DNA from: Streptomyces marianii
GTDB lineage: Bacteria; Actinomycetota; Actinomycetes; Streptomycetales; Streptomycetaceae
Reading direction: 5' to 3'
Assembly (NCBI RefSeq): GCF_005795905.1
Contig: NZ_VAWE01000001.1
Location: 8,063,501-8,127,500 of the forward strand
DNA length: 64,000 nucleotides
Position numbers and translations under genes: made by a program. Shown here piece after piece: positions 409 through 25,155 of this stretch. How positions within the stretch are numbered: position 1 is the stretch's first letter; each line of letters starts with the position of its first letter. Below the pieces are notes generated by a model. That model worked only from the letters and a program-made list of their open reading frames with translations, had not been told where the DNA came from and did no database searches.

Positions 409-3400
409 ATGCTTCCGCTCTCCTCCTCGCAGGAGATCGTCTGGCTGCACGAGCAGATGCAGCCGGGCAGCCGTGCCTACAACTTCACCGCCGCACTCGA
501 CCTCTGGGGCACGCTCGACACCGAGGCGCTGCACCGCGGGCTCGCCGCCACCCTGGAGCGCCACCCCGGCCTGCGGCTCGAACTCGTCGCCTCCACCGGT
601 TCCGTACCGGGGCAGCGGGTCGCGCAGGAGTGCCGGCCGAGGCTCAGCACGGTCGACATCAGCGGGGAGGAGGACCCCGAGGCGGCGTTCGCGGAGCTGC
701 TGCGCGCCGAGGCCGAGTCACCTCTCGACACCTTCGAGGCCCCGCTGCTCCGCTGGACGCTCGTCCGTCTCGCGGAGCGCCACCACCGCCTGGTCCACGT
801 CGAGCACCACCTGATTCACGACGGTCACTCCTTCGCGATCCTGCTCGACGACGTGTTCGGCGTCTACCGCGCCCACGTCCTCGGCGAGCCCGCGGAGCTC
901 CCGCCCGCCGCGTCGTACGCGGACCACGTCCTCGCCCGAGCCGAGGCCGCGTTCGCCCCCGAGAGCCTCGACTTCTGGCGGACGGCACTCCGCGACCAGC
1001 CCCACGACCTGCCACTGCCCGGCCTCGCCCGCCCCGGCGCCGGGCGCAGGCACCACGGCGCGCAGCTGCGGCAGTCGATCGGTGCCGACCTCGCCGGGCG
1101 GCTGCGCGAGCACGCCCGCTCCCGCGGCCTCACCCCGTTCGCCACGCTCCTCGGGCTCTTCGCCGAACTGCTGCGCCGGCACAGCGGACGCTCCCGGATG
1201 GTCGTCGGCACGGCCGTCGGCAACCGGCCCCGGGGCTACGAGAACTCCGTCGGCATGTTCGTCAACACCATCCCGCTGCCGCTCGCACTGGACGCCGGCG
1301 CGCCCGCGCAGGACACCATGGACGAGGTCACCGACACCCTCATCCGCGCCCTGCCGCACCAGGACGTGCCCGTCCAGGAGCTGACGCGCGCGCTCGGCAT
1401 GCACTCCTCGGGCGCGGACAACCCGCTGTTCTCCGTCATGTTCAGCGCCCACGACGCCCCGCTCCCCGAGATCGACGTACCCGGTCTGGACATCACGCTC
1501 TTCGAGGGGTTCAACACCGGCACCACCCGGTTCGACCTCGACGTCGTACTGCTGCCGGACGACCGGCGCGGTGTCACCCCGCGCCGCGGCGCGGCCGGTA
1601 TGACGCTGGTCTGGGACTACGACGCCGACCTCTTCGGCGAGGACGTGGCACGCATGCTCGCCGGCCGCTTCCTGGACCTGCTCCGGGCCTACCTCGACGC
1701 CCCGGAGACCCCGCTGGCCGACCTGGCGCCCGCGGCCGTGGAGCCGGCCGCCGAAGCCGTCCCCCTGCCGGAGGACCGCGACCCGCTCGATCCCACGGCC
1801 GGCCACGACCCGGCCCTGCCGGCCCTGCTGTCCGGCGCACGGCGCCTCAGCTACGGCGAACTCGACGCGCGCGTCGGCTCGCTCGCGCAGCGGCTGCGTG
1901 CCGCGGGGGTGACCCCCGGACAGCCGGTGGCCGTCGTCCTGCCCAGGGGGGCCGACTCCGTCGTCGCGCTGCTGGCCTGCCTGCGCACCGGCGCGGTCCA
2001 CTGCCCGCTGTCCCCCTCCGACCCGCCCGCCCGGCTCGCACTGCTCCTGGAACGGCTGGGCCCGGCGCTGGTGCTCACCGGTGAGGGCGGCCCGGCCGTA
2101 CCGGACGGACTGCCCGCCGCCCGGATCGACGCACCCGTGCTCCCCCGCGTGCGCGAGGCCGCGGTGCTCCCCGGCACCACGTACGTCATCCACACCTCCG
2201 GATCCACCGGCACGCCGAAGCCCGTCGCCGTCGGGCGCGCGGCGCTGGAACACCATGTGACGGCGGTCGCGGGCCGGTTCGCCCTCGCCGCCGGGGACCG
2301 GGTCCTGATGTTCGCGCAGCCGTCCTTCGACGTGGCGCTGGAGGAGGTGCTGCCGACCCTGCACGCCGGGGCGTGCCTGGTCGTCCCCGACCACGAGGTG
2401 CCCACCGGTGGGGAGCTCGCCGACCTGCTCGCGTCCGCGCGCGTCACCGTCGCCAATCTGCCCACCAGCTACTTCCTCGCCACCCGCGACGACCTGCGTC
2501 CCGCACTGCGCGACGGGAGCTGGGCACCGCGGCTGCTCGTCCTCGGTGGCGAGCGCCTTCCCGCGGACGCCCTCCGCGACGTCCTCGCCGACACCGGGGC
2601 GACCGTCCTCAACGCGTACGGCGTCACCGAGGCGGCCATCAGCTCCACCGTCCACGAGATCTCCCGCGACGCCCTCGCCGACGGTGCCGAGATCCCCCTC
2701 GGCACCGAACTCCCGGGCGAACGCGTCCACGTCCTCGACGCCCACCGCCGCCCGCTGCCGCCAGGCGCCGTCGGTGAACTCGCCATCGCCGGGCCCGGTC
2801 TCGCCGAGGGGTACGCGGGGAACCCGGAGGCGACGGCCGCCCGCTTCGTCACCGTCGACGCGCTCGGCGGGGAGCGCGTCTACCTGACCGGAGACCTCGG
2901 CTACCGCGGACTGGACGGCCTCCTGTACTTCCTGGGCCGGCGGGACAACCAGATCAAGCTCCGAGGGCACCGCATCGAGCTGGAGGAGATCGAGGCCGCG
3001 GCGTCCGCCGCACTCGGCGGCCGGTCCTGCGCCGTCGTCCTGGACCGCGAGACCGCCGGAGGCCCCCGGCTCGTCGGTTTCCTCGAGGACGGCGGCGGCC
3101 GCGCGGCGTTCGACGAGAAGACGCTGCACGCCGAGCTCGGCCGCCGGCTGCCCGGCCCCCTCGTCCCCGCGCGCTGGGCACTGCTCGACACCATGCCGAC
3201 CCTCGCCGGGGGCAAGCCCGACCGGACGGCGCTCGCCCGTCGTGCGGCGGCACTCGAACCCGTGGCACCCGCCGCGACCGCGTCCTCGCCCGCCCCCGTG
3301 CCGGACGATCCGATGACGGCCCTGCTCGCGGAGGGCTGGCGCGAGGTCCTCGGCCACAGCCGGTTCGACGCGCGCTCCCACTTCTTCCGCAGCGGAGGCC

Positions 3401-3546
3401 ACTCGCTGCTCGCCGCCGAGCTCGCGGCCTGGCTGGAGCCCCGGCTGGGCACCCGCCCACCGCTCAGGGTGCTCTTCCGCAACCCGGTGCTCGCCGAGCA
3501 GGCCGACGCCCTCGCGGCCACCTCCACCCTCTCCACGGAGTCGTGA
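409..3546 (+). CDS. NRPS module C-A-T
   Basis: A 1045-residue non-ribosomal peptide synthetase acting on carrier-bound substrates in the cytoplasm. The condensation domain fills about residues 1-430 with an intact catalytic motif HHLIHDG at 133-139. The adenylation domain follows, with TSGSTGTPK at about 596, NAYGVTEA, and a GGKPDR motif carrying the C-terminal lysine. The carrier serine is in GGHSLL at about residue 999. Read against GrsA, the binding-pocket code is D-V-E-N-V-G-A-I-S-K, loosely like recalled hydroxyornithine codes (D-x-E-N-x-G-x-I-x-K), so a basic or small polar amino acid is possible but not assigned. A C domain at the front of the first NRPS gene suggests that it acylates or extends something supplied by another protein. 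The stop overlaps the next ATG, so translation is probably coupled. Confidence 0.93.
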   Translation: MLPLSSSQEIVWLHEQMQPGSRAYNFTAALDLWGTLDTEALHRGLAATLERHPGLRLELVASTGSVPGQRVAQECRPRLSTVDISGEEDPEAAFAELLRAEAESPLDTFEAPLLRWTLVRLAERHHRLVHVEHHLIHDGHSFAILLDDVFGVYRAHVLGEPAELPPAASYADHVLARAEAAFAPESLDFWRTALRDQPHDLPLPGLARPGAGRRHHGAQLRQSIGADLAGRLREHARSRGLTPFATLLGLFAELLRRHSGRSRMVVGTAVGNRPRGYENSVGMFVNTIPLPLALDAGAPAQDTMDEVTDTLIRALPHQDVPVQELTRALGMHSSGADNPLFSVMFSAHDAPLPEIDVPGLDITLFEGFNTGTTRFDLDVVLLPDDRRGVTPRRGAAGMTLVWDYDADLFGEDVARMLAGRFLDLLRAYLDAPETPLADLAPAAVEPAAEAVPLPEDRDPLDPTAGHDPALPALLSGARRLSYGELDARVGSLAQRLRAAGVTPGQPVAVVLPRGADSVVALLACLRTGAVHCPLSPSDPPARLALLLERLGPALVLTGEGGPAVPDGLPAARIDAPVLPRVREAAVLPGTTYVIHTSGSTGTPKPVAVGRAALEHHVTAVAGRFALAAGDRVLMFAQPSFDVALEEVLPTLHAGACLVVPDHEVPTGGELADLLASARVTVANLPTSYFLATRDDLRPALRDGSWAPRLLVLGGERLPADALRDVLADTGATVLNAYGVTEAAISSTVHEISRDALADGAEIPLGTELPGERVHVLDAHRRPLPPGAVGELAIAGPGLAEGYAGNPEATAARFVTVDALGGERVYLTGDLGYRGLDGLLYFLGRRDNQIKLRGHRIELEEIEAAASAALGGRSCAVVLDRETAGGPRLVGFLEDGGGRAAFDEKTLHAELGRRLPGPLVPARWALLDTMPTLAGGKPDRTALARRAAALEPVAPAATASSPAPVPDDPMTALLAEGWREVLGHSRFDARSHFFRSGGHSLLAAELAAWLEPRLGTRPPLRVLFRNPVLAEQADALAATSTLSTES

Positions 3547-5507
3547 TGACCCAGCCCCTGACCACCCCTGACCCCACGACCGCCGCCGGCGCAGTCGCCC
3601 GCGGTGCCGAGGCCGCCGGCACCGGGCCCGCCGCCGTCGCCGCCGTCCCCCGCGACCCCGACGGCACCCCGCTGAGCATCGCCCACGGCCCCGCGGCCCG
3701 ACCGACCGGCGTGCTCGCCCGCTTCGAGGACTGGGCCCGGCGCACCCCGCAGGCCCCCGCCGTGATCGACGGCGACCGCACCTGGACGTACCGGGAACTC
3801 GACACCGCCGCCGCGCGCGTCGCCACCGCCCTGCGCGGCCGCGTGGGACCGGGGGACCTGGTCGGCGTCTGCCTCGACCGCTCGACGGCCCTCGTCGTGA
3901 CGGCCGTCGCGCTCGCCCGCCTCGGTGCCGTCTACCTGCCGCTCGGCCCCCGTCCCGGCGAGCGACGCACCGAGGCGGTCACCGAGGACCTCGACGTCGC
4001 CTGCCTCGTCGGCGACCCCGGAGTCCTACCCGCCCGCCACTGCGCCGGGGACCTGACCGCCCTGCCGCTGCCCATCGAGGGCAGCAACGCGCCCACCGCC
4101 CCCGTGGCCGCCTTCGCCCCTCCGGCGGCCGGCGCGCGACGAGCGCCCGAGGGCGCCCTGTACGCCGTCCTCACCTCCGGTTCCACCGGCCGCCCCAAGG
4201 CGGTCGCGGTGGCCGGGCCCGCCCTGTCCGTCGCCCTCGACTGGTACCGGGCCGAGACCGGTCTCGCACCCGGCGACCGCCAGTCCCTGCTCATCGGTGT
4301 CGCGTTCGACCCCCACCTGCTGGAGCTGTGGGCCGGGCTCACCTCCGGAGCCGCCCTCGTTCCCGCACCCGACGACGTCCGCTGGGACTCGCGCGTTCTC
4401 ACCGACTGGTGGCGCGACGCCGCCGTGACCGTGTCCGTGGCGGCCACCCCGATGGTGGAACCGCTGCTGGACCGGCCGTGGCCGCAGGACCTGAGCCTGC
4501 GTCACCTCGTCGTCGGAGGCGACCGGATGCGCCGCCGGCCCGGCCGCGACGTCACCGCCACCGTCCACAACGCCTACGGACCCGCGGAAGCCACCGTCGT
4601 CACCACCACCTACGCCATGCGCGGCACCGACGCGCAGGCGGGCAGCGCGACCCCGCCGCCCATCGGCGCCCCCCTGCCCGGTGTCACGGTCGTCGTCACG
4701 GGGGAGGACGGCCGGCCCGTCGCCCGCGGGCAGAACGGCGAACTCCGCATCGGCGGCCACTGTCTGGCGCTCGGCTACCTCGACCCCGAGCTGACCGCAC
4801 GGCGCTTCGCCGCCCCGCCGCAGGACCCGCCGCTGCCCGGCGTCGACCGTCTCTACCGCACCGGCGACCGGGTGCGGATGACCGCCGACGGCAGCCTCGA
4901 GTTCCTGGGACGCCTCGACGACCAGGTCAAGATCAGCGGCGTGCGGATCGAACCGGCCGAGGTGGAGGCCGCGTTCGAGCGGGACCCGGACGTCCGAAGC
5001 GCCGTCGTGACCGTGCTGCGCGACGAGTCCGGCCACGCACGCCTCGTCGCCCACGTACGGCCCGCCGCCGGCACCCGGCCCGCGACCGGTGACCTGCTGG
5101 CGGCGGTCCGCGCCTGGCTCCCCGAACAGGCCGTGCCCACCGCCGTGCGCATCGTCGAGGGCTACCCCCTGGACGCCAACGGCAAGGTGGACCGGCCCGC
5201 GCTGGCGGCGGAGACATCCGCTCCCGGCGGCTGCGCGACCCCCTCCGGCGACGCCCGTGGGACGACACCCGCCGAACGGCTCGTCCTCGCGACCGTACGG
5301 GACCTCCTCGGCCGGCCCGGGACCTCCCTCGGCGACAACTTCACCGACGCGGGCGGCACCTCCGTCGTCGCCGCCCGGCTGCTGGAGGCGGTCGAGCGCG
5401 AGACGGGTGTCCGCCTGCGCGCCCCCGAACTGCTGCGCAGCCCGGACCTGCGCGCCTTCGCCGCCCTCCTCGACGAGCGCCGGACCACACGGCCGACAGG
5501 AGCCTGA
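3546..5507 (+). CDS. NRPS A-T didomain
   Basis: A 653-residue adenylation-thiolation protein. After an Ala/Pro-rich leader of about 55 residues come the adenylation motifs TSGSTGRPKA (about 210), NAYGPAEAT, FLGRLDDQVKISG and NGKVDR, then a carrier site DAGGTS with its serine near 606. There is no condensation domain, so it must load its amino acid in trans or hand it to a C domain on the first or fourth protein. The hand-read code is D-P-L-V-V-G-A-V-V-K. Proline at the second pocket position is unusual and no substrate is proposed. The ATG at 3546 overlaps the previous stop; a GTG at 3543 is an alternative. Confidence 0.92.
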   Translation: MTQPLTTPDPTTAAGAVARGAEAAGTGPAAVAAVPRDPDGTPLSIAHGPAARPTGVLARFEDWARRTPQAPAVIDGDRTWTYRELDTAAARVATALRGRVGPGDLVGVCLDRSTALVVTAVALARLGAVYLPLGPRPGERRTEAVTEDLDVACLVGDPGVLPARHCAGDLTALPLPIEGSNAPTAPVAAFAPPAAGARRAPEGALYAVLTSGSTGRPKAVAVAGPALSVALDWYRAETGLAPGDRQSLLIGVAFDPHLLELWAGLTSGAALVPAPDDVRWDSRVLTDWWRDAAVTVSVAATPMVEPLLDRPWPQDLSLRHLVVGGDRMRRRPGRDVTATVHNAYGPAEATVVTTTYAMRGTDAQAGSATPPPIGAPLPGVTVVVTGEDGRPVARGQNGELRIGGHCLALGYLDPELTARRFAAPPQDPPLPGVDRLYRTGDRVRMTADGSLEFLGRLDDQVKISGVRIEPAEVEAAFERDPDVRSAVVTVLRDESGHARLVAHVRPAAGTRPATGDLLAAVRAWLPEQAVPTAVRIVEGYPLDANGKVDRPALAAETSAPGGCATPSGDARGTTPAERLVLATVRDLLGRPGTSLGDNFTDAGGTSVVAARLLEAVERETGVRLRAPELLRSPDLRAFAALLDERRTTRPTGA

Positions 5508-5508
5508 G

Positions 5509-7381
5509 ATGTCACACCGCACCCCGCAGCCCCTCGACACCACGGCGGACGCGCCCGCGCCGCCGCCCGCCGCGCCGGGCGGCCCCGGAGCCCGGCCGTC
5601 CGCACCACGGACCGGCCTGCCCGCCCTCGTCGCCCGGCACGCCGAACTCCACCCGAACGCCCTGGCCGTGGTCGACGGCGACACCACCCTCACCTACGGC
5701 CGGCTGGTCGCGGCCGGCCGTGCGCTCGCCGCACGCCTGCGCGACCACGGGGTGACCCGCGGCGACCGGGTCGCGTTGCTCACCACCCGCTCCGCCCGTA
5801 CGGTCGTGGCGCAGCTCGCGCTGTGGTGGGCCGGAGCCGTGTGCGTGCCGCTGGATCCCGCCCAGCCCCGGCCGCGCACCGAGGCGATGACCGCCGACGC
5901 GGAGGTGACGCTCACCGTCGGCGACGCCAAGCTGCTGGACGCGTCCTCGTTCGCCGGCCCCGTGCTCGCACTGCCCGAGGAACCGCTGAACGGCACGGGT
6001 CTCCAGGAGGAAGCCGACCCGGACAGCCCGGCGTTCATCATGTTCACCTCCGGCTCCACCGGACGCCCCAAGGGCGTCGCCGTCCCGCACGGAGCCATCG
6101 CCGAACTGGTCACCGCACCGGAGTACGTCACCGTCACCGCGCGGGACCGGGTCCTCTTCCACTCGCCGATGACCTTCGACGCCTCGACGTTCGAGGTGTG
6201 GGCCGCGCTGGCCAACGGCGCCGCGGTCGTCGTGTGCACCGTGGAGCGCCCTTCCCTGGAGGACCTGTCCCGGCACGTCGAACGCCACGGTGTGACGGTG
6301 GCGTTCTTCACCACCGCCCTCTTCCACCAGCTCGCCGCCCGCCGCTCCCGCGTCTTCGACCAGCTGCGGTCGGTCGTGGTGGGCGGTGAGGCGCTGGCCG
6401 CCGCCCAGGCCCGCGAGGTGCTGGCCGCCTTCCCGTGGCTGGAGCTGGTCAACGGCTACGGACCGACCGAGACGACCACCTTCGCCACCGCCCACCGGGT
6501 CACCCGGGCCGACTGCGACGGCCCGATACCGATCGGCCGGCCCATCGCCGGCGCGACCGTGCACCTCCTGGGCACCGACGGCCACCCGGTCGCGGACGGG
6601 GACCGGGGAGAACTGTGGATCGGCGGCAGCAGGCTGGCCCACGGGTACACCGGACTGCCCGCGCTCACCGCCGAGCGGTTCGTCGACCACCCCGGCGCCG
6701 GGCGGCTCTACCGCACCGGCGACATCGTCTCCCGCCGTCCCGACGGCACGCTCGACTTCCACGGGCGCAACGACGACCAGGTCAAGGTCCGCGGATTCCG
6801 CATCGAACCCGGCGAGGTCGAACACGCCCTGCGCGAGCGGCCCGACGTCGACGACGCCGCCGTCACCGTCGACCGGGCGGGCACCCCTGAGGCACGCCTC
6901 GTCGCCTTCGTCGTACCCGCGCCCGGCCCGGTTCCCCGGCCCGCGGCGCTCCGCGAACGGCTCACCGACGTCCTGCCCGCGCATCTGGTGCCCGACGCGG
7001 TCACCGTGGTGGAGCAGCTGCCGCTCACGCCGTCCGGCAAGGTCGACCGGCGCGCCCTCGGCGGACTCACCGGCACGGGCGAGGGCGGTGAGTCCGGTAC
7101 GCCCGTGCCGCCGATGACCCCGCTGGAGCAGGCGGTCGCCGAGGTGTGGAGCCGGGCGCTCGGCAGCGAGGTCGCCCGTGCCGACGCCGACTTCCTCGCC
7201 CTCGGCGGCCATTCGCTGCTCGCCCTGGCCGTCACCGACGACCTGCGTGAGGAACTCGGTGCGGAGATCGCCCTCGCCGACTTCTTCGCCGCCCCGACCG
7301 TCGCCGGCCAGGCGGTCCTGGTCGAGCGCGCCCTGCTGGCCGTGCACGGCGACCTCCACCCCGAGACCCCGGAGCACAGCG

Positions 7382-7392
<11 letters not shown>
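5509..7392 (+). CDS. NRPS A-T didomain, valine-like code
   Basis: A 627-residue adenylation-thiolation protein starting one base after the previous stop. Motifs in order: FTSGSTGRPKGV (about 180), FDASTFEVW, NGYGPTETTT, FHGRNDDQVKVRGFRIEPGE, SGKVDRRAL and the carrier site LGGHSLL with its serine near 569. The code read by alignment to GrsA is D-A-F-F-V-G-G-T-F-K, eight of ten positions identical to the remembered valine code D-A-F-W-I-G-G-T-F-K. A branched aliphatic residue (Val or Ile) is therefore the best guess. It has no C domain and must cooperate with neighbouring proteins. The next gene begins inside its last codons. Confidence 0.93.
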
Positions 7393-10657
<3,265 letters not shown>

Positions 10658-14973: not shown

Positions 14974-16415
14974 TAGTGCTTGGTCAGGTTGGTGCGCGGG
15001 TGGGTATGCCGCGGTGGCAGGTGGGGCAGGCGCCGGTCCAGGTTGCGAGGAGTGTCTGCAGCTCGCGGACGACCTGGTACAGGCTCAGGCCGGCGCCGTG
15101 TCTTTTGGGGCATGGGCCAGTCGCTGCAGGGTGCAGAAGGCGTGCGCGACGGAGACGAGGGTGACGTGGTGGTGCCAGCCGCCCCAGGTGCGGCCTTCGA
15201 AGTGGGCCAGGCCCAGGGCCTGCTTCATCTCCCGGTAGTCGTGCTCGATCCGCCAGCGGAGCTTGGCCAGGCGGACCAGTGTGGTCAGCGCGGTGTCCTC
15301 GGGCAGGTCGGACAGCCAGAACTGGACCGGCTCGCTCTCGCCTGCGGGCCATTCGGCCAGCAGTCGGCACTTGGGCAGTTCCGGTCCGTCGGCGGCTTGG
15401 CGGATCTCGCGTCCGGCGGGCCGGACCCGTAAGGCCACGAAGCGGGAGTACATTCGCTTGACCCCGCGGCGGCCGGTGCCCGGCCGGGATCCCTCCCGCC
15501 ACTGCACCGGCCGTGCGGCCTTCCTGCCCGCCGCGATGACCAGATCTTTCACCGGCCGGGCAGGGTCGGGGTACTTCGCCACCGGCGGTCGTCCATGGCC
15601 CGAGTACGGCTCGCATACCGGGACTGCATCGGCGGGCTGTGCCGACATGGTGGTGGAGATCCCCACCACGTAATTCAGGCCGCGGGCCTGCAGCCCGTGC
15701 CGGAAGGCCGCGCAGTCGCCGTATCCGGCGTCCGCGACGGCCAGCGGCACATCGATTCCCCAGGAGCGGGTCTCATCGAGCATGTCCAGGGCCAGCTGCC
15801 ACTTCTCGACATGACCGACGTCGTCGGGGATGCCGCACCGCTCGCGGCGGGCCACCTTGCCGGGGTCGGCTTTCGGTGAGGTGGGGTCCCAGGTCTGAGG
15901 CAGGAACAGCCGCCAGTTGACCGCCGTCGAGGCGTGGTCCGAGGCCAAGTGCAGTGAGACACCCACCTGGCAGTTGGTGACCTTGCCCGCGGTGCCGGTG
16001 TACTGCCGCGACACGCACGCCGAGGCCGTCCCGTCCTTCAGGAAGCCGGTGTCGTCGAAGACCACGGCCTTCGGCCTGATCGCCACCTCCATCCGCCAGG
16101 CCAGCTGGGCCCGGATATGCGCCGGGTCCCAGGGACTGGTAGTGATGAAATTGGCCAGGGCCTGACGGTTGCCGTCAGCCCCGAGCCGGGCGGCCATCGG
16201 CTCGACGGACTTGCGCCGCCCGTCGGTCAGCAATCCCCGCAGGTAGACCTGCCCCCACCGACGCTGGTCCTTGCGCGCGAACGGCTCGAACACCTCCGCC
16301 GCAAACGCCTCCAACTCACCACGCAACAAACCAATCTCGTCCGGAGTCACACACTCCCAACGTCACACCCAGCCCAAAGGACACGCACCACCACAACCAA
16401 CCTGACCAAGCACTA
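14974..16415 (-). mobile_element. Intact IS701-family insertion sequence, CTAG duplication
   Basis: A 1442-base insertion sequence. Its ends are TAGTGCTTGGTCAGGTTGGT at the left and the exact inverse complement at the right, 20 bp perfect. Identical CTAG tetranucleotides flank it (14970-14973 and 16416-16419), matching the YTAR-type target duplication known for IS701 elements. It contains one full-length transposase gene on the minus strand. Perfect ends and an intact gene indicate recent insertion. The pre-insertion target was CCTAGG, at the edge of the adjoining MITE. Confidence 0.9.
15085..16350 (-). CDS. IS701 family transposase
   Basis: A full-length 421-residue DDE transposase. The catalytic residues can be placed in VVFDDTGFLKDG (first Asp), LAVADAGYGD (second Asp) and RWRIEHDYREMKQALGLAHFEGR (Glu, with the Y-x2-K signature). 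RQYTGTAGKVTNCQVGVSLH is also characteristic. The gene fills the element, leaving 111 and 65 bases to its two ends. No frameshift or stop interrupts it, so this copy may be active. It lies between the two NRPS blocks. Confidence 0.95.
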   Translation of the reverse strand: MTPDEIGLLRGELEAFAAEVFEPFARKDQRRWGQVYLRGLLTDGRRKSVEPMAARLGADGNRQALANFITTSPWDPAHIRAQLAWRMEVAIRPKAVVFDDTGFLKDGTASACVSRQYTGTAGKVTNCQVGVSLHLASDHASTAVNWRLFLPQTWDPTSPKADPGKVARRERCGIPDDVGHVEKWQLALDMLDETRSWGIDVPLAVADAGYGDCAAFRHGLQARGLNYVVGISTTMSAQPADAVPVCEPYSGHGRPPVAKYPDPARPVKDLVIAAGRKAARPVQWREGSRPGTGRRGVKRMYSRFVALRVRPAGREIRQAADGPELPKCRLLAEWPAGESEPVQFWLSDLPEDTALTTLVRLAKLRWRIEHDYREMKQALGLAHFEGRTWGGWHHHVTLVSVAHAFCTLQRLAHAPKDTAPA

Positions 16416-16515
16416 CTAGGGACCCGCCGCCCACGCGCCGCCTGGTGCTCGGCGGCGGTGGGCGGTGCATCGCGCGGCCGGTGCGGCGGCACGCTCCCGG
16501 GCCCGGGCCGGGAAG

Positions 16516-17499
16516 TCAGACCGCGGGGGAGGGGGCCACCGCGGCCGGCGGGGCGAGTACGTGTTCGCCGTAGAGGTCGTGGACCCAGTTGGTCTGGTAG
16601 ACCGTCTCCAGGTACCGCTCGCCCAGGTCCGGCGCGATGGCCACCGCGGTCGGGTTCTCGTCTCCGTGCGCGGCGAGCCAGCTCGTCGCGCCGCTGACGA
16701 CCGTGCCGGTGGAGCCGCCGAAGAGGAATCCGCGCCTCGCCAGCCGGTGACACGCCCGGATGGTGTCGGCCTCCGGTACGTGCACGACCTCGTCCACGTA
16801 CGAGGTGTCCAGCAGCGGTGGTCGGACGCTGGTGCCCAGACCGGGGATCATCCGCCGGCCCGGGGTGTCGCCGAAGGTGACGGAGCCGGCGCTGTCCACG
16901 GCCACGATCCGAACCGGTCGGTGCCACTCGCGGAAGAAGCGGGCACAGCCCATCAGCGTGCCCGTGGTCCCGGCGCCGACGAACAGTACGTCCAGGTCGG
17001 GGAACTGCCGGGCTATGGCCGGAGCGGTCCTGCGGTAGTGGGCCATGCCGTTGTTCGGGTTCGTGTACTGGTTCAGCCATACGTAGCGGTCGTCGGACGC
17101 GCACAGAGCCCGCACATGGTCGATGCGCGCCCCGAGGAAACCGCCCTCGCCCGCCTCGGTGACGACGTGCACCTCGGCGCCCAGGGCCTCCATCAGCAGT
17201 CGGGTGGACAGATTGCACCGCGAGTCCGTCACACACAGGAACCGGTAGCCCTTGCTGGCTGCGATCATGCTCAGTGCCACGCCCAGGTTGCCCGACGAGG
17301 ACTCGATCAGCACCGAGCCCGGTCCCAGAAGGCCGTCGCGCTCGGCGGCCTCGACCATCTCGGTGGCGGCCTTGAGCTTGATCGAGCCGGCGAAGTTGAA
17401 CCCCTCGCATTTCAGGAACAGCGGGTGTCCGAAAATCGACTCGAGATCGACATAGAGGTCGTCTTCGTTGAAATCCTGTGGGACGGATATGACAGACAC
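16516..17499 (-). CDS. sbnA: SbnA-like 2,3-diaminopropionate biosynthesis enzyme (PLP)
   Basis: A 327-residue PLP-dependent enzyme of the cysteine-synthase fold. In Staphylococcus, SbnA condenses O-phospho-L-serine with L-glutamate to N-(2-amino-2-carboxyethyl)-glutamate, the first step to L-2,3-diaminopropionate. The Schiff-base lysine is in GFNFAGSIKLKAA (K41). The phosphate loop is GAGTTGTLMG, the substrate loop ESSSGNLGVAL, and GGSTGTVVSGA follows. The GTG start at 17499 has a strong AGGAGG nine bases upstream. It is divergent from the NRPS/dioxygenase/SbnB operon and probably shares a control region with it. The downstream IS701 copy ends about 100 bases past its stop. Confidence 0.88.
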   Translation of the reverse strand: MSVISVPQDFNEDDLYVDLESIFGHPLFLKCEGFNFAGSIKLKAATEMVEAAERDGLLGPGSVLIESSSGNLGVALSMIAASKGYRFLCVTDSRCNLSTRLLMEALGAEVHVVTEAGEGGFLGARIDHVRALCASDDRYVWLNQYTNPNNGMAHYRRTAPAIARQFPDLDVLFVGAGTTGTLMGCARFFREWHRPVRIVAVDSAGSVTFGDTPGRRMIPGLGTSVRPPLLDTSYVDEVVHVPEADTIRACHRLARRGFLFGGSTGTVVSGATSWLAAHGDENPTAVAIAPDLGERYLETVYQTNWVHDLYGEHVLAPPAAVAPSPAV

Positions 17500-18288
17500 G
17501 GTGGCCTCCTGTCAGGGCGTGTGGGAAGCGGGGAAGAAAGCCGTCCGGGCGGCGCCCGAACGCCTCTCCAGTACGCCTGACGGGAAGCCCTTCGTCATGC
17601 CACCGGAATTCGGGGCTTGACATCGAAGCGCAATGTGCATGTCGGTGCAGCGTGGTTTTCTGTGCAGGTCATAGTCGTGATCGAGGGATCGGCTGAGATC
17701 TGCGGGCACACGGCGAAATACGGTTGCGGTCCCCTATCTGGTTGCGGCTTCCGTGTCAAGTGGCGAATTCCCGTAGCAGGACAGAACCGGCTCGGCAGGG
17801 CCTACTGGATTGCGTTCGCCGGATTGCGCTCGACCCCGGCGGAACCTGCGACGAGATCCGCTGCCGGGATGGCCTGTGAAGAGTCACCCCGGGAACGGAA
17901 GATTCCAAGGGGAAAAGACGTGCAAGCATGCGGACTACAGGTGTGCGACCGATGTGTCCGTGGTTCCGTGGCGAGGACAGGGGCCCATGGCCCCGTCCTT
18001 CCCGAGTGGCCCCCACCGGGCACGGGCACGGTCTCCGGCCGGCCTGCCGGGGGCAGCCCCCGGCGGATCACGCAACGTGACCGTGTGCCGGCCGGTCGCG
18101 AAGTTCCCCCTAACGCACGGTGGGACGGCAACCCGGCCCGGGAAGTACGGGACCACGAGGCCCTCCACCAGAAGGCCGTACACAACGCCATCAGCCACCA
18201 CATCGCGGCTCCGGAACACGCCCACCGACGGCCCACCGGCACCGCGACGTCACCCCACACACCACCAGAGCAACCGAGGAAGGACACG
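17500..18288. other. Divergent control region of the Dap/NRPS block
   Basis: A 789-base gap between the divergent sbnA-like and NRPS genes. The frame of the NRPS is open upstream to 17617, but the translation is Cys/Arg-rich and not protein-like. The part around 17600-17760 is clearly richer in A and T than its surroundings and contains TTGACA at 17617-17622, though no matching -10 hexamer sits at the right distance. Promoters and operators for both operons are expected here. Confidence 0.45.
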
Positions 18289-20820
18289 ATGGACATGCAT
18301 ACGGACCCGGGCAGGGAGTTCTGGTGCGCTGTGCTGGGTGCTGGAGGGCTGACGTCGGTTCCGCGGTGGACGGCCGAGCCGGTGTCGGGTGGTGCGGAGC
18401 GGGTGGTGCGGGTTCCGGTGGGGTTGGTGCGGGGTTTGCGGCGGTTGGCCGAGGAGTTGGGTGTTCCGTTGGGGGTGGTGGTGCTGGCGGCTCACGTCCG
18501 TGTGCTGGCGGTGTTGTCGGGTGAGGACGAGGCCGTCACGGGCTGTGTTCCCGTTCCGGGTGCGCGGGCGTTGCCGTGCCGGTTGGCGGCCGATGGTGCT
18601 CGTTCCTGGTGGGCGTTGGTGCGTGATGCGCATCGCGTGTCCACGGGGTTGTGTGCGCATCGTGATTTTCCGGTGGGGGAGTTGGCGCGTGAGTTGGGTG
18701 TTGGGGGTGTGTTGTACGAGGTGGAGTTCGACGCCTTTGGTGTGGAGGGGGAGGTTGGTGGGGGGACGGTGTTGCGGTTGTCGGTGGTGGAGGGGGTGGG
18801 TGGGGAGGTGGTGTTGCGGTTGCGGTTCCGTACCGAGGTGCTGGACGGGGAGGCGGTGGGCCGGATTGCCGGTTATCACCTGGCGGCGCTGGAGCGGATC
18901 GTGGCGGATCCGTATGCCGTGTGCGGCGAGGCGGGTCTGGTGTCCGCCGAGGAGGTGGGTTTTCAGGTGGAGGGGCTGGCGGGGCGGCGGCGGGAGTTGC
19001 CGGGGTTGCGGGTGCACGAGTTGTTCGAGGAGCGGGTGCGGATGCATCCGGACGCGGTGGCGGTGGTGGATGCGGGGCGGGAGTGGACGTACGGGGAGTT
19101 GAACGGGCGGGCGAACCGGTTGGCGCGGGCGTTGCGGGTGCGTGGTGTGGAGGGGGAGGGTGTGGTGGGGGTGGTGCTGGAGCGGAATGCGGACTGGCTG
19201 GCGTCGGTGCTTGCGGTGTTCAAGGCGGGTGGGGTGTATCTGCCGGTCGAGCCGCGTTTCCCGGCGGGCCGGATCGCGGCGACGCTGTCGCGGGCGGGGT
19301 GCCGGGTGGTGCTGACGGAGTCCGGGAGCAGCGGGTCGCTGGACGAGGCGTTGGTCTCGGTCGGTGGGGTGGAGCGGTTGCCGGTGGATGTGGCGTATGC
19401 CGAGGGGCACGCTGAGGATGATTTGGGTGTGCCGGTGGCGGCGGGGCAGTTGGCGTACATCTATTTCACCTCTGGTTCGACGGGTGAGCCGAAGGGTGCG
19501 ATGTGCGAGCACGCGGGTCTGGTGAACCATCTGTTCGCGAAGATCGACGATCTGGGGATCGGTGAGGGTGGTGTGGTGGCGCAGGTCGCGCCGCAGTGTT
19601 TCGACATCTCGTTGTGGCAGTTGGTGGCGGGGTTGTTGGTGGGTGGGCGGACGGTGCTGGTGGAGCAGGACGCGGTGCTGGATGTGTCGCGGTTCTTGGA
19701 CACGGTCGTCGGTGCCGGGGTGAATGTGGTGCAGGTGGTGCCGTCGTATCTGGAGGCGGTGCTGGCGGCGTTGGAGCGCGAGCCGCGGGGGCTGGGGGAT
19801 CTGCGGTGTGTGTCGGTGACGGGTGAGGCGTTGAAGCGGGAGCTGGCGGAGCGGTGGTTCGCGGCGCAGCCGGGGATCGTGCTGGTGAACGCCTATGGGC
19901 TGACGGAGACCTGTGACGACACCAACCATGAGGTGATGACGGGGGTGCCGGGGCGGGTGTTGCTGGGGCGGCCGGTGGCCAATGTGCATGTGTATGTGGT
20001 GGACGAGGGGCTGCGGCCGGTGCCGTTGGGTGCGCCGGGGGAGATCGTGTTCTCGGGGGTGTGTGTGGGGCGTGGGTATGTCAATGATCCGGAGCGGACG
20101 GCGGCGGCGTTCGTGCCGGATCCGTTGCGGCCGGGTGAGCGGTTGTATCGCAGTGGGGATCGTGGCCGGTGGGATGTGTCGGGGAAGCTGGAGTTCCTGG
20201 GCCGGCGGGACACGCAGGTGAAGATCCGCGGGTTCCGGATCGAGGTCGGGGAGATCGAGAACACGCTGTTGCGTCAGGCGGGGGTGCGGGACGGTGCGGT
20301 GGTCGCGGTGGCGGGTGGTGCGGGGACGCAGTTGGTGGCGTTCTACACGGCCGCGGGGCCGTTGGAGGCGCGGGTGCTGGCCGCGGGGCTGGGGGCGACG
20401 CTGCCGTCGTACATGGTGCCGTCGGTGTTCCACTGGCGGGACGGGCTGCCGCTGACCGCGAACGGCAAGGTCGACAGGAAGGCCCTGACCGCGCTCGCCG
20501 CCACCCTGGACACCCCCACCGAGAACACCGGCACCGGTGACCGCGGCGGTGGCGGTGCGCCGGCGACCCCGGCGGAACGACGGCTGGCGGCGGCCTGGTC
20601 GGCCGTGCTGGGTGTGCCCGAGGACCGGATCAGCCGCGGCGACCACTTCTTCGACCGCGGTGGCACATCGCTGTCCGCGGTGAAACTCGCCATCGCCCTG
20701 GACCGCGCCGTCACCCTCAAGGACGTCACCCGCCACCCCGTCCTCACCGACCTCGCCGCACTCCTCGACACCGACACCGACACCGACACCACCGACAACC
20801 AACCCGCCTCCGCCTCGTGA
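18289..20820 (+). CDS. NRPS half-C-A-T protein, predicted to load Dap
   Basis: An 843-residue NRPS protein. The first 220 residues resemble only the C-terminal half of a condensation domain, with no HHxxxDG. A full A domain follows (TSGSTGEPKGA about 394, QCFDISLWQL, NAYGLTETCDDTNHE, FLGRRDTQVKIRGFRIE, NGKVDRKAL), then a carrier domain with serine near 794 in RGGTSLS. The pocket code is D-I-W-Q-S-T-A-D-D-K, eight of ten matching the remembered SyrE diaminobutyrate code D-I-W-E-L-T-A-D-D-K. With Dap biosynthesis genes on both sides, L-2,3-diaminopropionate is the likely substrate. Base usage is strongly G-biased (TTG, GTG, GGG codons) from about 18340 to 20460, then turns abruptly C-rich. ATG 18289 follows GAGGAAGG. 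Confidence 0.9.
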   Translation: MDMHTDPGREFWCAVLGAGGLTSVPRWTAEPVSGGAERVVRVPVGLVRGLRRLAEELGVPLGVVVLAAHVRVLAVLSGEDEAVTGCVPVPGARALPCRLAADGARSWWALVRDAHRVSTGLCAHRDFPVGELARELGVGGVLYEVEFDAFGVEGEVGGGTVLRLSVVEGVGGEVVLRLRFRTEVLDGEAVGRIAGYHLAALERIVADPYAVCGEAGLVSAEEVGFQVEGLAGRRRELPGLRVHELFEERVRMHPDAVAVVDAGREWTYGELNGRANRLARALRVRGVEGEGVVGVVLERNADWLASVLAVFKAGGVYLPVEPRFPAGRIAATLSRAGCRVVLTESGSSGSLDEALVSVGGVERLPVDVAYAEGHAEDDLGVPVAAGQLAYIYFTSGSTGEPKGAMCEHAGLVNHLFAKIDDLGIGEGGVVAQVAPQCFDISLWQLVAGLLVGGRTVLVEQDAVLDVSRFLDTVVGAGVNVVQVVPSYLEAVLAALEREPRGLGDLRCVSVTGEALKRELAERWFAAQPGIVLVNAYGLTETCDDTNHEVMTGVPGRVLLGRPVANVHVYVVDEGLRPVPLGAPGEIVFSGVCVGRGYVNDPERTAAAFVPDPLRPGERLYRSGDRGRWDVSGKLEFLGRRDTQVKIRGFRIEVGEIENTLLRQAGVRDGAVVAVAGGAGTQLVAFYTAAGPLEARVLAAGLGATLPSYMVPSVFHWRDGLPLTANGKVDRKALTALAATLDTPTENTGTGDRGGGGAPATPAERRLAAAWSAVLGVPEDRISRGDHFFDRGGTSLSAVKLAIALDRAVTLKDVTRHPVLTDLAALLDTDTDTDTTDNQPASAS

Positions 20821-20927
20821 ACACCGTGCCGACCGGGGCCGAGGACGGAGCACGGCAGGCCACGGAACAACAGATCACGGAAGCACCACAGATCACGGAA
20901 CACCGCAGCAAGGAAAGGACACACACG

Positions 20928-21935
20928 ATGACACCCCCCGCTCCCGCCACCCTGCCCCAGGTCGCCCTCCGGCCCGGCAGGCCGCCGGTCCTGTCCATCG
21001 ACGCCCCTGACGACGCATCGACCTGGACCGCCGCGCATGCCCCCGCACTGCGCGCCCTCGTCGCCGAGCACGGTGCGATCCTCGTGCGCGGTCTGGGGCT
21101 GTGCGACGCGGACCAGGTCGGCGTCGCGTTCCGGCAACTCGCCGGCAGCGCACTCCTGCCCGACAGAGAAGCGTTCGCAGCCCGGGAGGCCTACGCGGGC
21201 GGTGTCTATTCGTCATCGGCCTGGCCGCCCAACCAGCCGATGTGCATGCACCACGAACTCAGCTATGCCCTCACTCCTCCCGGCATGATGATGTTCGCGT
21301 GCCTGACCGCGCCGGCCGACGGCGGGGTCACCGGGGTCTCGGACTCCACCGCCGTGCTGGAGGCGCTGCCGCCGGCGATGGTGGAACGCTTCGAGCGGGA
21401 GGGCTGGCTGCTCACCCGCAGCTACAACGACGAGATCGGCGCCTCCTGGACCGAGGCCTTCGGCACCGACGACCGCACCGCCGTCGAGGAGTACTGCCGA
21501 GCCAACGCCATCGACCTCGCCTGGCAGAGCGACGGCGGCCTGCGCACCCGCCAGCGCCGCAGCGCCGTCGTGCGCCACCCGCGGACCGGAGCCCGCTGCT
21601 GGTTCAACCAGATCGCGTTCCTCAACGAATGGACCCTCGCCCCCGAGGTCCGCGAGTACCTCGTCGACGAGTACGGCGAGGACGGCCTGCCGTTCAACAC
21701 CCGCTACGGCGACGGCGACCCCGTCGGCGAGGACGTCGTCCAGACCCTCAACGAGGTCTACGAGGCCCACACGGCCCGCGAACCCTGGCAGCCCGGCGAC
21801 CTCATGCTCGTCGACAACATCCGCACCGCCCACAGCCGCGAGCCCTACGAAGGCCCCCGCGAGATCCTCGTCGGGCTGGCCGAGCCGCAGAAGCTTGCCG
21901 GCGTCCCGTCGGCGGGCGGGCCGGGCGTGCGATGA
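20928..21935 (+). CDS. Fe(II)/2-oxoglutarate dioxygenase, TauD/SyrP-like
   Basis: A 335-residue non-haem iron dioxygenase. MHHELSYALTPPGMMMFACL supplies the H-x-E iron ligands and DIRTAHSREPYEG-like sequence near the C-terminus (LVDNIRTAHSREPYEG) supplies the distal His and the 2-oxoglutarate-binding Arg. Relatives such as SyrP and the VioC group hydroxylate amino acids, either free or on carrier proteins. Its position between the Dap-loading NRPS gene and the SbnB-like gene suggests hydroxylation or desaturation of Dap or of the growing peptide. The stop overlaps an ATG (ATGA at 21932) in frame with the next gene. Confidence 0.86.
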   Translation: MTPPAPATLPQVALRPGRPPVLSIDAPDDASTWTAAHAPALRALVAEHGAILVRGLGLCDADQVGVAFRQLAGSALLPDREAFAAREAYAGGVYSSSAWPPNQPMCMHHELSYALTPPGMMMFACLTAPADGGVTGVSDSTAVLEALPPAMVERFEREGWLLTRSYNDEIGASWTEAFGTDDRTAVEEYCRANAIDLAWQSDGGLRTRQRRSAVVRHPRTGARCWFNQIAFLNEWTLAPEVREYLVDEYGEDGLPFNTRYGDGDPVGEDVVQTLNEVYEAHTAREPWQPGDLMLVDNIRTAHSREPYEGPREILVGLAEPQKLAGVPSAGGPGVR

Positions 21936-22069
21936 CCTCTCCGACCTCCGGTTCCCCCGGGGCCCCGACCGGTTCGGGCCACCCGGCCACAGCCGCCACC
22001 GCGACCCGGCCGAAACCGTCCACCACCGCGACCGTACCCAACAGCAGTTCCGTCTCCCGGGAGTCCTCC

Positions 22070-23107
22070 ATGTCCCAGCCGACCGCCGTGCCGCCGTTCG
22101 CCGTGATCTCCGGCGCCCAGGTCCGCAGAGCCCTGCACAATCGCGAGAAGCAGGTCACCGACCTCGTCGAGGCCACGTACCGACTGCACGCCGCGGGCGA
22201 CTCGGTGAACCCACCCTCGTACTTCCTCAGGTTCCCCGACCGCCCCAACTCCCGGATCATCGCACTGCCGGCCTCCATCGGCGGTCAGATCCGCGTGGAC
22301 GGCCTCAAGTGGATCTCCAGCTTCCCCGACAACGTCGCGGCCGGCATCCCCCGGGCCTCGGCCGTACTGATCCTCAACGACCACGACACCGGCTACCCCT
22401 TCGCCTGCCTGGAGAGCTCCATCATCAGCGCGACCAGGACTGCCGCCATGGCGGCGCTCGCCGCCGACCGGCTCGGCCGCGCCCTGCCCCAACGCCCGGC
22501 GCGGGTCGGGTTCTTCGGCACCGGCCTGATCGCCCGCTACATCCACACCTTCCTCGCCGGCACCGGCTGGTCCTTCGAGGAGATCGGTGTGCACGATCTG
22601 TCGGCTGACAGCGCCGCCGGGTTCGCCGGGTACCTCCAGCAGAGCGGCACTCCCGGCCGGGTCACCGTCCACCAGGACCCCGAGGAGCTCATCCGCTCCA
22701 GCGACATGGTCGTCTTCGCCACGATCGCCGCCAAGCCGCACGTCGCCGACCCGTCCTGGTTCAGCCACAACCCGCTCGTGCTGCACGTCTCCCTGCGCGA
22801 CCTCGCCCCCGAGATCCTGCTCGCCTCGGCCAACTTCGTCGACGACGTCGAGCACTGCCTCAAGGCCGACACCTCCCCGCACCTGGCCGAGCAGCTCACC
22901 GGCAGCCGGGACTTCCTCACCGGCACGCTCGCCGACGCCATGAGCGGCAAGGTGCAGGTGCCCGACGACCGGCCGGTGGTCTTCTCGCCCTTCGGCCTCG
23001 GGGTGCTCGATCTGGCCGTCGGCAAGTACGTGTACGACGAGACGGAACGCGCCGGTCAACTGCAAGTCGTCGACGACTTCTTCCACGAGCTGCGTCGTTA
23101 CGGCTGA
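22070..23107 (+). CDS. sbnB: SbnB-like 2,3-diaminopropionate biosynthesis enzyme
   Basis: A 345-residue enzyme of the ornithine-cyclodeaminase/mu-crystallin fold. In Staphylococcus, SbnB oxidatively cleaves N-(2-amino-2-carboxyethyl)-glutamate with NAD+ to L-2,3-diaminopropionate and 2-oxoglutarate. The signatures are the substrate-binding SYFLRFPDRPNSRIIALPA and DGLKWISSFPDNVAAGIPRA, the Rossmann loop GFFGTGLIARYIH, and late LGVLDLAVGKYVYDE. ATG 22070 gives the family length. An ATG at 21932 overlapping the dioxygenase stop would add 46 Ser/Thr/Pro residues that look non-native. It is the last gene of the operon. Confidence 0.88.
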   Translation: MSQPTAVPPFAVISGAQVRRALHNREKQVTDLVEATYRLHAAGDSVNPPSYFLRFPDRPNSRIIALPASIGGQIRVDGLKWISSFPDNVAAGIPRASAVLILNDHDTGYPFACLESSIISATRTAAMAALAADRLGRALPQRPARVGFFGTGLIARYIHTFLAGTGWSFEEIGVHDLSADSAAGFAGYLQQSGTPGRVTVHQDPEELIRSSDMVVFATIAAKPHVADPSWFSHNPLVLHVSLRDLAPEILLASANFVDDVEHCLKADTSPHLAEQLTGSRDFLTGTLADAMSGKVQVPDDRPVVFSPFGLGVLDLAVGKYVYDETERAGQLQVVDDFFHELRRYG

Positions 23108-23137
23108 GGTTCCGGCCCGCGCGGCCCCGCCGGCTCC

Positions 23138-23184
23138 GTGCCCGGCAGGGCCGCGCCGGGCACGGCTCCCGGGCACGGGAGCCG
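23138..23184 (+). terminator. Double hairpin after the SbnB-like gene
   Basis: Two stems follow the stop by 31 bases. GTGCCCGGC (23138-23146) pairs with GCCGGGCAC (23155-23163). CGGCTCCC (23163-23170) pairs with GGGAGCCG (23177-23184). They probably end the NRPS/Dap operon. The rest of 23185-23537 holds no gene that reads as protein. Confidence 0.5.
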
Positions 23185-23537
23185 AACGGGTGCGCTCGCG
23201 GGCCGTGCCCCCAGGAGGCCGTTACGGCCCGGGCGGGCATGCCGCGTAAGGAGTAATGGGCAGTCCGCACCGATCGGCCGTGTCACGCTGAGAGGATTCC
23301 GCAGCCGGTCTCCCGCAGGGCCAGGACGCCCGCGGCACGACGAAGGACACCACCTCGCATGAGCCCCGCACCGACCACCGCCGACGCGGTGCGCAGGCAT
23401 CCGGTGCCTCAGGGACGTCCGGCTGTACCCGAGCCGGTCCTCGTGCCGGAGCCGGGGCTGCGACAGGGGTCGGGCCCCGGACCTGGGTCCGGACGTCGGG
23501 TCGGCCGCCCCGGCCGGGTCCAGCCCACCGGGCCGTC

Positions 23538-24887: not shown

Positions 24888-24920
24888 CGGCCCCACCGCG
24901 TGCGTTCACCCCACGTGCGG

Positions 24921-24941
24921 CCACGGGGCGATTCCCCGTGG
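24921..24941 (+). terminator. Hairpin terminator after the GAF-PP2C gene
   Basis: An 8-bp stem CCACGGGG / CCCCGTGG with loop CGATT, 34 bases after the stop and ahead of the convergent gene ending at 25156. No gene is visible in 24888-25155. Confidence 0.5.
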
Positions 24942-25155
24942 TGCGGGCTTCCGTGGTCTGCGGCTCGCGTCGCGCGGAGTCTCCGGACGTGATCAGGACA
25001 CACCGGGCCGGGTCGACGACCGGCGTCCGCCGAAGGAGGCGCCGTCACGGCGTCACGCCCCTCACCGCCTCCGGACGGCCCCGCACCGCACGGCCGCACT
25101 CCAGGGCGGGGTGCGGCGGGGCGACAGGGGGTACACGTCCGGTGCGGCGAAGGGT

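Follow-up and report, generated by a model that had tools for sequence, protein, structure and literature searches.

The subject of this analysis is a block of four genes at positions 16516 to 23107 of a 64,000-nucleotide window from Streptomyces marianii (assembly GCF_005795905.1, contig NZ_VAWE01000001.1, positions 8,063,501 to 8,127,500 of the forward strand; unprefixed coordinates below are those of the window). We consider it probable that this block is a satellite copy, derived from what is called type II below, of a conserved actinobacterial cassette for L-2,3-diaminopropionate (Dap), in which Dap would be made, tethered to a carrier domain and oxidised, most likely aiding in trans a canonical copy of the cassette elsewhere in the same genome, and in which the gene for the Dap-loading protein, consisting of adenylation (A) and thiolation (T) domains, would have been homogenised with its canonical counterpart species by species.

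The four genes of the block

The genes and the domains of the A-T protein, in which C stands for condensation, are as follows.

16516..17499, minus strand: SbnA-type enzyme of 327 amino acids, Dap step 1, type II lineage (TIGR03945 above cut-off, SbnA as top PDB match, tree)
18289..20820, plus strand: half-C-A-T nonribosomal peptide synthetase (NRPS) loading protein of 843 amino acids, without thioesterase (TE), A code DIWQSTADDK
18289..19008, plus strand: half-C region without HHxxxDG, boundary approximate (phmmer match to McyA from McyA residue 207; partial PF00668 in homologues)
19024..20490, plus strand: A domain, bounds approximate (PF00501 and PF13193, amino acids 246-727)
20581..20766, plus strand: T (carrier) domain with the GGTS serine (PF00550, amino acids 765-826)
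20928..21935, plus strand: TauD-type Fe(II)/2-oxoglutarate dioxygenase (PF02668; ligands conserved)
22070..23107, plus strand: SbnB-type dehydrogenase, Dap step 2, probably of type II lineage (TIGR03944 above cut-off; tree weak, 80/86)

All four open reading frames lie intact inside 16516-23107, with likely starts at 18289 for the A-T gene, 20928 for the dioxygenase gene and 22070 for sbnB, and sbnA is oriented divergently to these three. The initial annotation had read the block as an SbnA-like enzyme, a half-C-A-T protein, a dioxygenase and an SbnB-like enzyme, and the equivalog cut-offs and domain matches confirmed this. The SbnA-type protein scored 389.3 bits with NCBIfam TIGR03945 (equivalog cut-off 349.95), whereas with the cysteine and cysteate synthase models it scored 141-210 bits, under the cut-offs of those models, which are 344-600 (for cysKM, 209.8 bits against 344.15). 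Its top match in the PDB was SbnA and the next was CmnB. Among its homologues the motif SSSGN(L/M)G was present in 105 of 105 rows, and the five commonest patterns of the lysine motif that binds pyridoxal phosphate, which together cover 103 of these rows, are FAGS(I/V)K. The SbnB-type protein scored 419.3 bits with TIGR03944 (equivalog cut-off 326.9). An identity as cysteine synthase or ornithine cyclodeaminase was ruled out, the scores being well under the curated cut-offs, and the assignment to SbnA and SbnB held when the two proteins were set against those families. SbnA and SbnB form L-Dap from O-phosphoserine and glutamate, and the two enzymes of the block are expected to do the same. For NjxA and NjxB, a Dap pair of Streptomyces, a passage of PMC4668381 reports serine and ornithine as the substrates in vitro and not phosphoserine and glutamate. 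Because the four-gene set is kept as a unit in dozens of genomes, its co-occurrence is far above chance.

The N-terminal ~240 amino acids of the A-T protein represent the C-terminal half of a condensation domain. Matches of relatives to PF00668 were weak (E 0.23 to 8e-5) and confined to positions 189-284 or 392-451 of the profile, and a search of the first 240 residues in 105 homologue rows found no HHxxxD motif. The carrier serine was present in all 105 A-T rows. The A code DIWQSTADDK, read by hand in the initial annotation, matched the alignment-derived code exactly and was found in 102 of the 105 aligned rows, with DIWQSTTDDK in two and an unrelated NRPS (L032) as the remaining row; the 105 rows take in this NRPS as well as five loci that were fetched twice (L042/L076, L037/L054, L040/L056, L039/L058 and L044/L096), as does, for the same five loci, the set of 88 rows used for nucleotide skew below. 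The initial annotation had noted its resemblance to the diaminobutyrate code of SyrE, and it has 6 of 10 positions in common with DVWQMIGDDK, which is listed among diaminobutyrate-activating domains in a passage of PMC12283262. The code and the gene partnership lead us to infer that Dap is the substrate of the A domain and is transferred by it to the T domain of the same protein.

In the dioxygenase the HxE motif was found in 111 of 112 rows (the other has a gap there), and the distal His and the Arg that binds 2-oxoglutarate were found in 112 of 112. From what is known of the family, the glutamate iron ligand argues against a halogenase. An AlphaFold2 model of the dioxygenase was poor (mean pLDDT 53) and nothing was concluded from it. 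The view that Dap is made, loaded and then oxidised, put forward at the outset, fared differently in its three parts: the supply of Dap is well supported by the enzyme families, its loading fits the code and the partnership, and oxidation of the T-bound residue by the dioxygenase is plausible. A simple beta-hydroxylation of Dap would yield a carbinolamine, which is unstable, so that desaturation or a reaction on an acylated or oligomeric intermediate deserves consideration.

The canonical cassette and the origin of the window copy

The dioxygenase was found at E <= 1e-80 in 120 of the 246 genomes searched, S. marianii included. Searching GTDB genomes with the dioxygenase gave 422 confirmed matches, of which the best 80 were compared as loci; counts among them leave out cassettes without a dioxygenase and more distant cassettes. 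The full canonical order, which is a Pls/PosA-type membrane synthetase, half-C-A-T(-TE), dioxygenase, SbnB and SbnA, was present in 57 of the 80 loci and the same order without TE in a further 10. The Pls-type gene was present in 76; three of the four loci that lack it end at contig edges (L050, L059, L060) and the fourth is that of Streptomyces sp. I6. The gene order of the window was seen in one locus of the 80, in Streptomyces sp. I6, which carries a canonical cassette too. S. marianii itself has a second, canonical cassette at 2.69 Mb, 5.4 Mb from the window, with all genes on one strand. Its Pls-type protein (858 amino acids, with a carrier region at the N-terminus besides a terminal domain of Pls/PosA type) scored 818 bits with TIGR02353 (cut-off 423; 784-886 bits in the three Pls-type proteins scanned), and its A-T protein is half-C-A-T-TE. 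In the canonical cassette the membrane synthetase would use the loaded residue and the TE would release it. With A-T, dioxygenase, SbnB and SbnA genes co-located and with the same A code, the window block counts as a cassette of this kind; rather than a new cluster of its own, it is a reduced paralogue of a widespread cassette that normally has a Pls/PosA-type synthetase and often a TE. A third SbnB-type gene of S. marianii that is over the family cut-off lies outside both cassettes (G000:C1:6180275-6181252).

A second type of cassette (type II), with a divergent upstream sbnA followed by Pls, a TE-less A-T gene, dioxygenase and sbnB, was found beside the canonical one in G040, G212, G101 and G218. 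The sbnA of the window fell inside the type II sbnA group (tree support 100/98) and the canonical sbnA of S. marianii among the canonical ones; the sbnB of the window grouped with type II and its canonical counterpart fell in a mixed group. The intergenic DNA between sbnA and the A-T gene of the window matches type II intergenic DNA, and where type II cassettes have the whole Pls gene it holds the following feature.

18094..18213, plus strand: 3'-terminal remnant of a Pls/PosA-type gene, covering its last ~20-40 codons (tblastn, blastn)

In tblastn with four Pls queries the remnant matched at 65-68% over 19-20 residues (L079, L031) and at 38-43% over 40-49 residues (L118, L146), with E values of 1e-5 to 9e-8 across the four, and in blastn at 75-84% over 44-81 nucleotides in the end region of the Pls gene. 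It was seen in this sensitive four-query search, and the canonical Pls of L031 used alone with a filter of E 1e-5 gave no match. In 15001-25000 no match to an intact Pls gene rose above threshold, the 3' remnant being all that was found. Taken together, the sbnA tree, the intergenic match and the remnant indicate that the window cassette is a type II cassette from which the Pls gene was lost by deletion, and its sbnA and, with weaker support, its sbnB are type II genes left unconverted.

A third form of the cassette (L117:30-6250, L155:38-6144, L157:4737-11539) has a Pls-type gene, a dioxygenase, a stand-alone AMP ligase (531 amino acids in L117, PF00501) and a small carrier protein, and no match to sbnA or sbnB was found in these three stretches. 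In L117 the half-C is fused straight to T, the entire A domain being gone. The Pls-type gene and the dioxygenase seem to stay paired when the A domain and the Dap supply are swapped.

Homogenisation of the A-T gene between the two loci

When the window was compared with the canonical copy of S. marianii, the identity was 99.96% in the A-T gene, 91.6% in the dioxygenase gene, 81.6% in sbnA and 81.3% in sbnB.

18301..20808, plus strand: homogenised block, 2507 of 2508 nucleotides the same as in G000:C1:2696126-2698633

The lone mismatch in these 2508 nucleotides is at 20531, and with the ends included the pair was 99.5% identical in the alignment. In the related genome G230 the A-T pair was 94.2% identical overall, with 100% in 200-nucleotide windows over alignment positions 600-2399 and 64-83% before them, and in Streptomyces sp. 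I6 it was 99.3% identical in the alignment (91.8% as a length-weighted blastn mean, in which extra segments are counted). Between species of this clade the A-T genes were 82-88% identical. In the A-T tree the copies paired by genome in S. marianii and in G230 (100/99 each), and the dioxygenases of the clade from both loci formed one group divided by locus. At the level of sequence, these results show that the homogenisation of the A-T gene with its canonical counterpart took place independently in each species. The two trees, one divided by locus and the other by genome, further indicate a single, earlier homogenisation of the dioxygenases that predates the split of these species, and a renewed one of the A-T genes after it.

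Nine control genomes with two cassettes had A-T identities of 70.6-79.9% (length-weighted blastn means), no closer than those of their sbnA and sbnB, and showed no skew. Besides S. marianii and G230, 21 genomes had at least two dioxygenase matches; further stretches were taken for ten of these and eight were compared, G204 and G049 being dropped because the second match was not a cassette of this kind, and the ninth control was NBC_01549. Third copies without A-T in G144 and G234 were left out of the comparison.

From ~18300 to 20350 the GC skew was mostly +0.35 to +0.52 and the TA skew +0.2 to +0.6, both declining at the two ends, and the canonical A-T copy had the same pattern. Over 18301-20820 the mean GC skew was 0.35 and the mean TA skew 0.30, above the threshold of >25% that a passage of PMC10394414 gives for genetic repeats of intense nucleotide skews (GRINS). 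In the codons up to 20350, valine was 83% GTG, proline 97% CCG and leucine (CTN) 97% CTG, compared with 40%, 62% and 61%, respectively, in the A-T gene of L036. Among the 88 A-T rows a GC skew >0.25 was found in seven, all from this clade, namely both copies of S. marianii, G230 and Streptomyces sp. I6 and the canonical copy of Streptomyces pacificus, the highest value among the other rows being 0.139; the A-T gene of G034, a relative, had 0.275. None of the dioxygenase, sbnB, sbnA and Pls rows was over 0.05. The pairs of S. marianii, G230 and Streptomyces sp. I6 passed the published GRINS thresholds and the control pairs of G040 and G212, the two of the nine controls for which they were run, failed them. 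No partner inside the same polyketide synthase (PKS) was found, the A-T gene being an NRPS gene whose sole other long copy in the genome is at G000:C1:2.696 Mb; the remaining matches to it in this genome were <500 nucleotides long at 66-85%. Replication-strand skew as the cause is argued against by the fact that both copies are skewed on the coding strand and the flanking genes are not. That the skew is a trait of every genome with two cassettes was rejected from the nine controls.

GC and TA skew and repeats are described as GRINS properties in PKSs in passages of PMC10394414, PMC9899208 and PMC11907408. The A-T block resembles GRINS in having a near-identical repeat of >1 kb, GC and TA skew >25% in the block, codon recoding and gene conversion, but by the published definition the partner is within the same PKS, whereas here the skewed element is a single-module NRPS gene with its partner locus 5.4 Mb off. 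The homogenisation has the look of gene conversion of the GRINS type, acting between a pair of NRPS loci, and the block behaves as GRINS, but as an inter-locus NRPS variant. The original GRINS abstract of 2021 reportedly mentions other gene families, so that skew beyond PKSs is perhaps no novelty by itself.

Function of the satellite copy and alternative explanations

In the proposed mechanism the satellite, which has no TE and whose Pls gene is reduced to a remnant, most likely acts in trans, together with the canonical cassette at a distance of 5.4 Mb. In S. pacificus (G246) the canonical cassette (L046) has lost sbnB, and at its satellite locus sbnB (L170:9447-10484) is intact, the A-T gene is gone and sbnA is a remnant. 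This satellite sbnB is the only close sbnB in the genome (88%; the other match is 42%). The reciprocal loss of sbnB suggests that both loci contribute to one pathway and have their Dap supply in common. The ratios of nonsynonymous to synonymous substitution (dN/dS) between S. marianii and G230 were 0.07 for sbnA, 0.19 for sbnB, 0.34 for the A-T gene and 0.35 for the dioxygenase gene, by which measure the satellite genes are under purifying selection between these two genomes.

Several points weigh against this account. The action in trans is deduced from what the satellite lacks, and the satellite may be partly redundant; in S. pacificus sbnB is the only intact gene of that locus, and in the record of Streptomyces sp. 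I6 the reading frames of the satellite sbnB and of the two A-T genes are broken, through either sequencing error or decay. The placement of the window sbnB with type II is weak (80/86). The homogenisation of the A-T gene is comparable in three closely related genomes only, one of which, Streptomyces sp. I6, rests on the alignment, since a length filter removed its canonical A-T row from the tree, and the trees do not give the direction of either homogenisation. Over the whole gene, TA skew was >25% only in S. marianii and Streptomyces sp. I6 (0.24 in G230, 0.23 in S. pacificus and 0.19 in G034), and the A-T gene of S. pacificus is skewed though now single-copy, so that skew does not depend on a second copy still being there.

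The reduced Pls gene, the missing TE and the state of the loci in S. pacificus and Streptomyces sp. I6 would also be expected if the satellite were a decaying relic without present function and the A-T identity a by-product of recombination. All four genes, however, are open with their catalytic residues in S. marianii, open in G230 and low in dN/dS, and the satellite sbnB of S. pacificus is intact precisely where the canonical one is missing, and we regard a relic as unlikely.

The initial annotation had also linked the block to the neighbouring NRPS operon. Upstream of the block the window contains the following features.

409..10657, plus strand: NRPS operon of C-A-T, A-T, A-T and C-T-reductase proteins, judged separable from the cassette (domain scans; absent from the locus in relatives)
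7382-10657, plus strand: terminal NRPS protein of the operon, with C, only the C-terminal subdomain of an A domain, T and an NAD-binding reductase-like domain (domain scans)
15085..16350, minus strand: DDE-type (DDE_5) transposase, outside the cassette (PF13546; synteny gap)

The transposase lies between a DUF4180 gene and sbnA, and the matching stretch of G230 is without it. The A codes of the operon are DVENVGAISK, DPLVVGAVTK and DAFFVGGTAK. If the block were the Dap supply and loading unit of this operon, the two would make one joint new product, the last protein of the operon taking Dap from the stand-alone A-T protein. The operon and the cassette are indeed syntenic in S. marianii and G230 (93% over 13.4 kb), and the terminal module, left with just a remnant of its A domain, would depend on the loading of an amino acid in trans. 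But the operon stretch (~19 kb in G230) is missing at the locus in Streptomyces sp. I6 and was not found at the S. pacificus locus, of which 19 kb were read and where the satellite sbnB is intact all the same, and the usual companion of the cassette is the Pls-type gene. Furthermore, DVENVGAISK has Glu at position 3, which a passage of PMC10522769 associates with A domains for basic amino acids, and the operon may not need Dap. The link thus turned out to be weak; a joint product seems distinctly improbable, and it is not likely to be the original role of the cassette.

As for the homogenisation, conversion might be replaced as an explanation by independent recent insertions of a single skewed A-T gene at the two loci, or by its horizontal transfer to both, as the A-T genes of the clade form a long branch apart from other A-T genes and, among the 120 best listed relatives, identity is at most 69% after Streptomyces spongiicola (74%) and partial entries. 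However, the copies are most alike within each genome, at the same two loci and with differing tract ends (past ~600 nucleotides in G230); a single transfer cannot produce this pattern and repeated insertions at the same two sites are unlikely, which makes this explanation very improbable. That two A-T regions were collapsed or cross-polished in assembly is hardly credible, for although partial A-T genes stand on short contigs in Streptomyces wuyuanensis (1980 bases) and Streptomyces sp. NPDC059016 (1820 bases) (P0123, P0124) and the contigs of G034 break in the dioxygenase beside A-T as happens with hard-to-assemble repeats, the copies of S. marianii, G230 and Streptomyces sp. I6 lie inside contigs of 6.9-8.4 Mb with distinct flanks, and in S. 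pacificus the one A-T gene left is still skewed and codon-recoded, and skew cannot arise from a collapse.

Comparison with known systems and significance

Both Dap-forming enzymes are shared with the staphyloferrin B (SbnA/SbnB) and capreomycin (CmnB/CmnK) pathways, with SbnA and SbnB at the equivalog level and chains of these enzymes among the PDB matches. To our knowledge neither pathway has an A-T and dioxygenase partner of this type, and their end products are different. In the dapdiamide pathway DdaA and DdaB are the Dap enzymes, the substrate is N-fumaramoyl-Dap, and the ligases DdaF and DdaG build the dipeptide. DdaA-DdaD of Pantoea are alike to the block in combining Dap enzymes, the carrier-loading DdaD and the dioxygenase DdaC, which acts on a T-bound Dap derivative (a passage of PMC12451424). 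A dapdiamide-type cluster was rejected for the window, no ATP-grasp domain being found in the 19 called genes scanned between 409 and 34306. The dioxygenases of the SyrP and AmbC type are of the same TauD family, and single homologues have been named SyrP-like or AmbC by their depositors. SyrP acts on a carrier-bound residue, which is Asp. The residue modified in the AmbC type is Glu, in L-2-amino-4-methoxy-trans-3-butenoic acid (AMB), and a passage of PMC4357302 gives AmbC a role in modifying a carrier-bound peptide.

The poly-L-Dap synthetase of Streptomyces albulus PD-1, which occurs with NjxA/NjxB (PMC4668381), is the system of a membrane synthetase with Dap supply to which the cassette can be compared. 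According to the passages that describe it, both have a Dap pair of a cysteine-synthase-like and an ornithine-cyclodeaminase-like enzyme, a Dap-activating A domain with a peptidyl carrier protein (PCP) domain, and a Pls-type three-domain membrane C-terminus. It differs in that A, PCP and the Pls-type domain lie in a single TE-less polypeptide, that those passages name no dioxygenase, and that the Dap genes appear to be separate from the synthetase gene. The A code also differs, with Trp at position 3 in the block, where the poly-Dap synthetase family keeps Glu (a passage of PMC10522769).

The comparison exposes a widespread actinobacterial pathway in which a Pls/PosA-type protein, a dioxygenase and a separate A-T(-TE) protein for Dap loading are joined, and no description of such a pathway was found in the open-licence PMC text with the terms used. 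For GRINS, what creates and maintains them is said in the original abstract to be an open question, and the cassettes offer a clean comparison: a single small gene at two loci can be set against ~80 homologue rows without skew, and in one clade skew goes together with homogenisation within the genome. There is about an even chance that GRINS-type recoding extends here beyond repeats within a PKS, and that a skewed Dap-loading NRPS gene held in two clusters 5.4 Mb apart drives, or results from, repeated conversion in the species that keep both, by which the stripped locus would stay tied to the canonical one as a shared loading module for a probably oxidised Dap oligomer or polymer.

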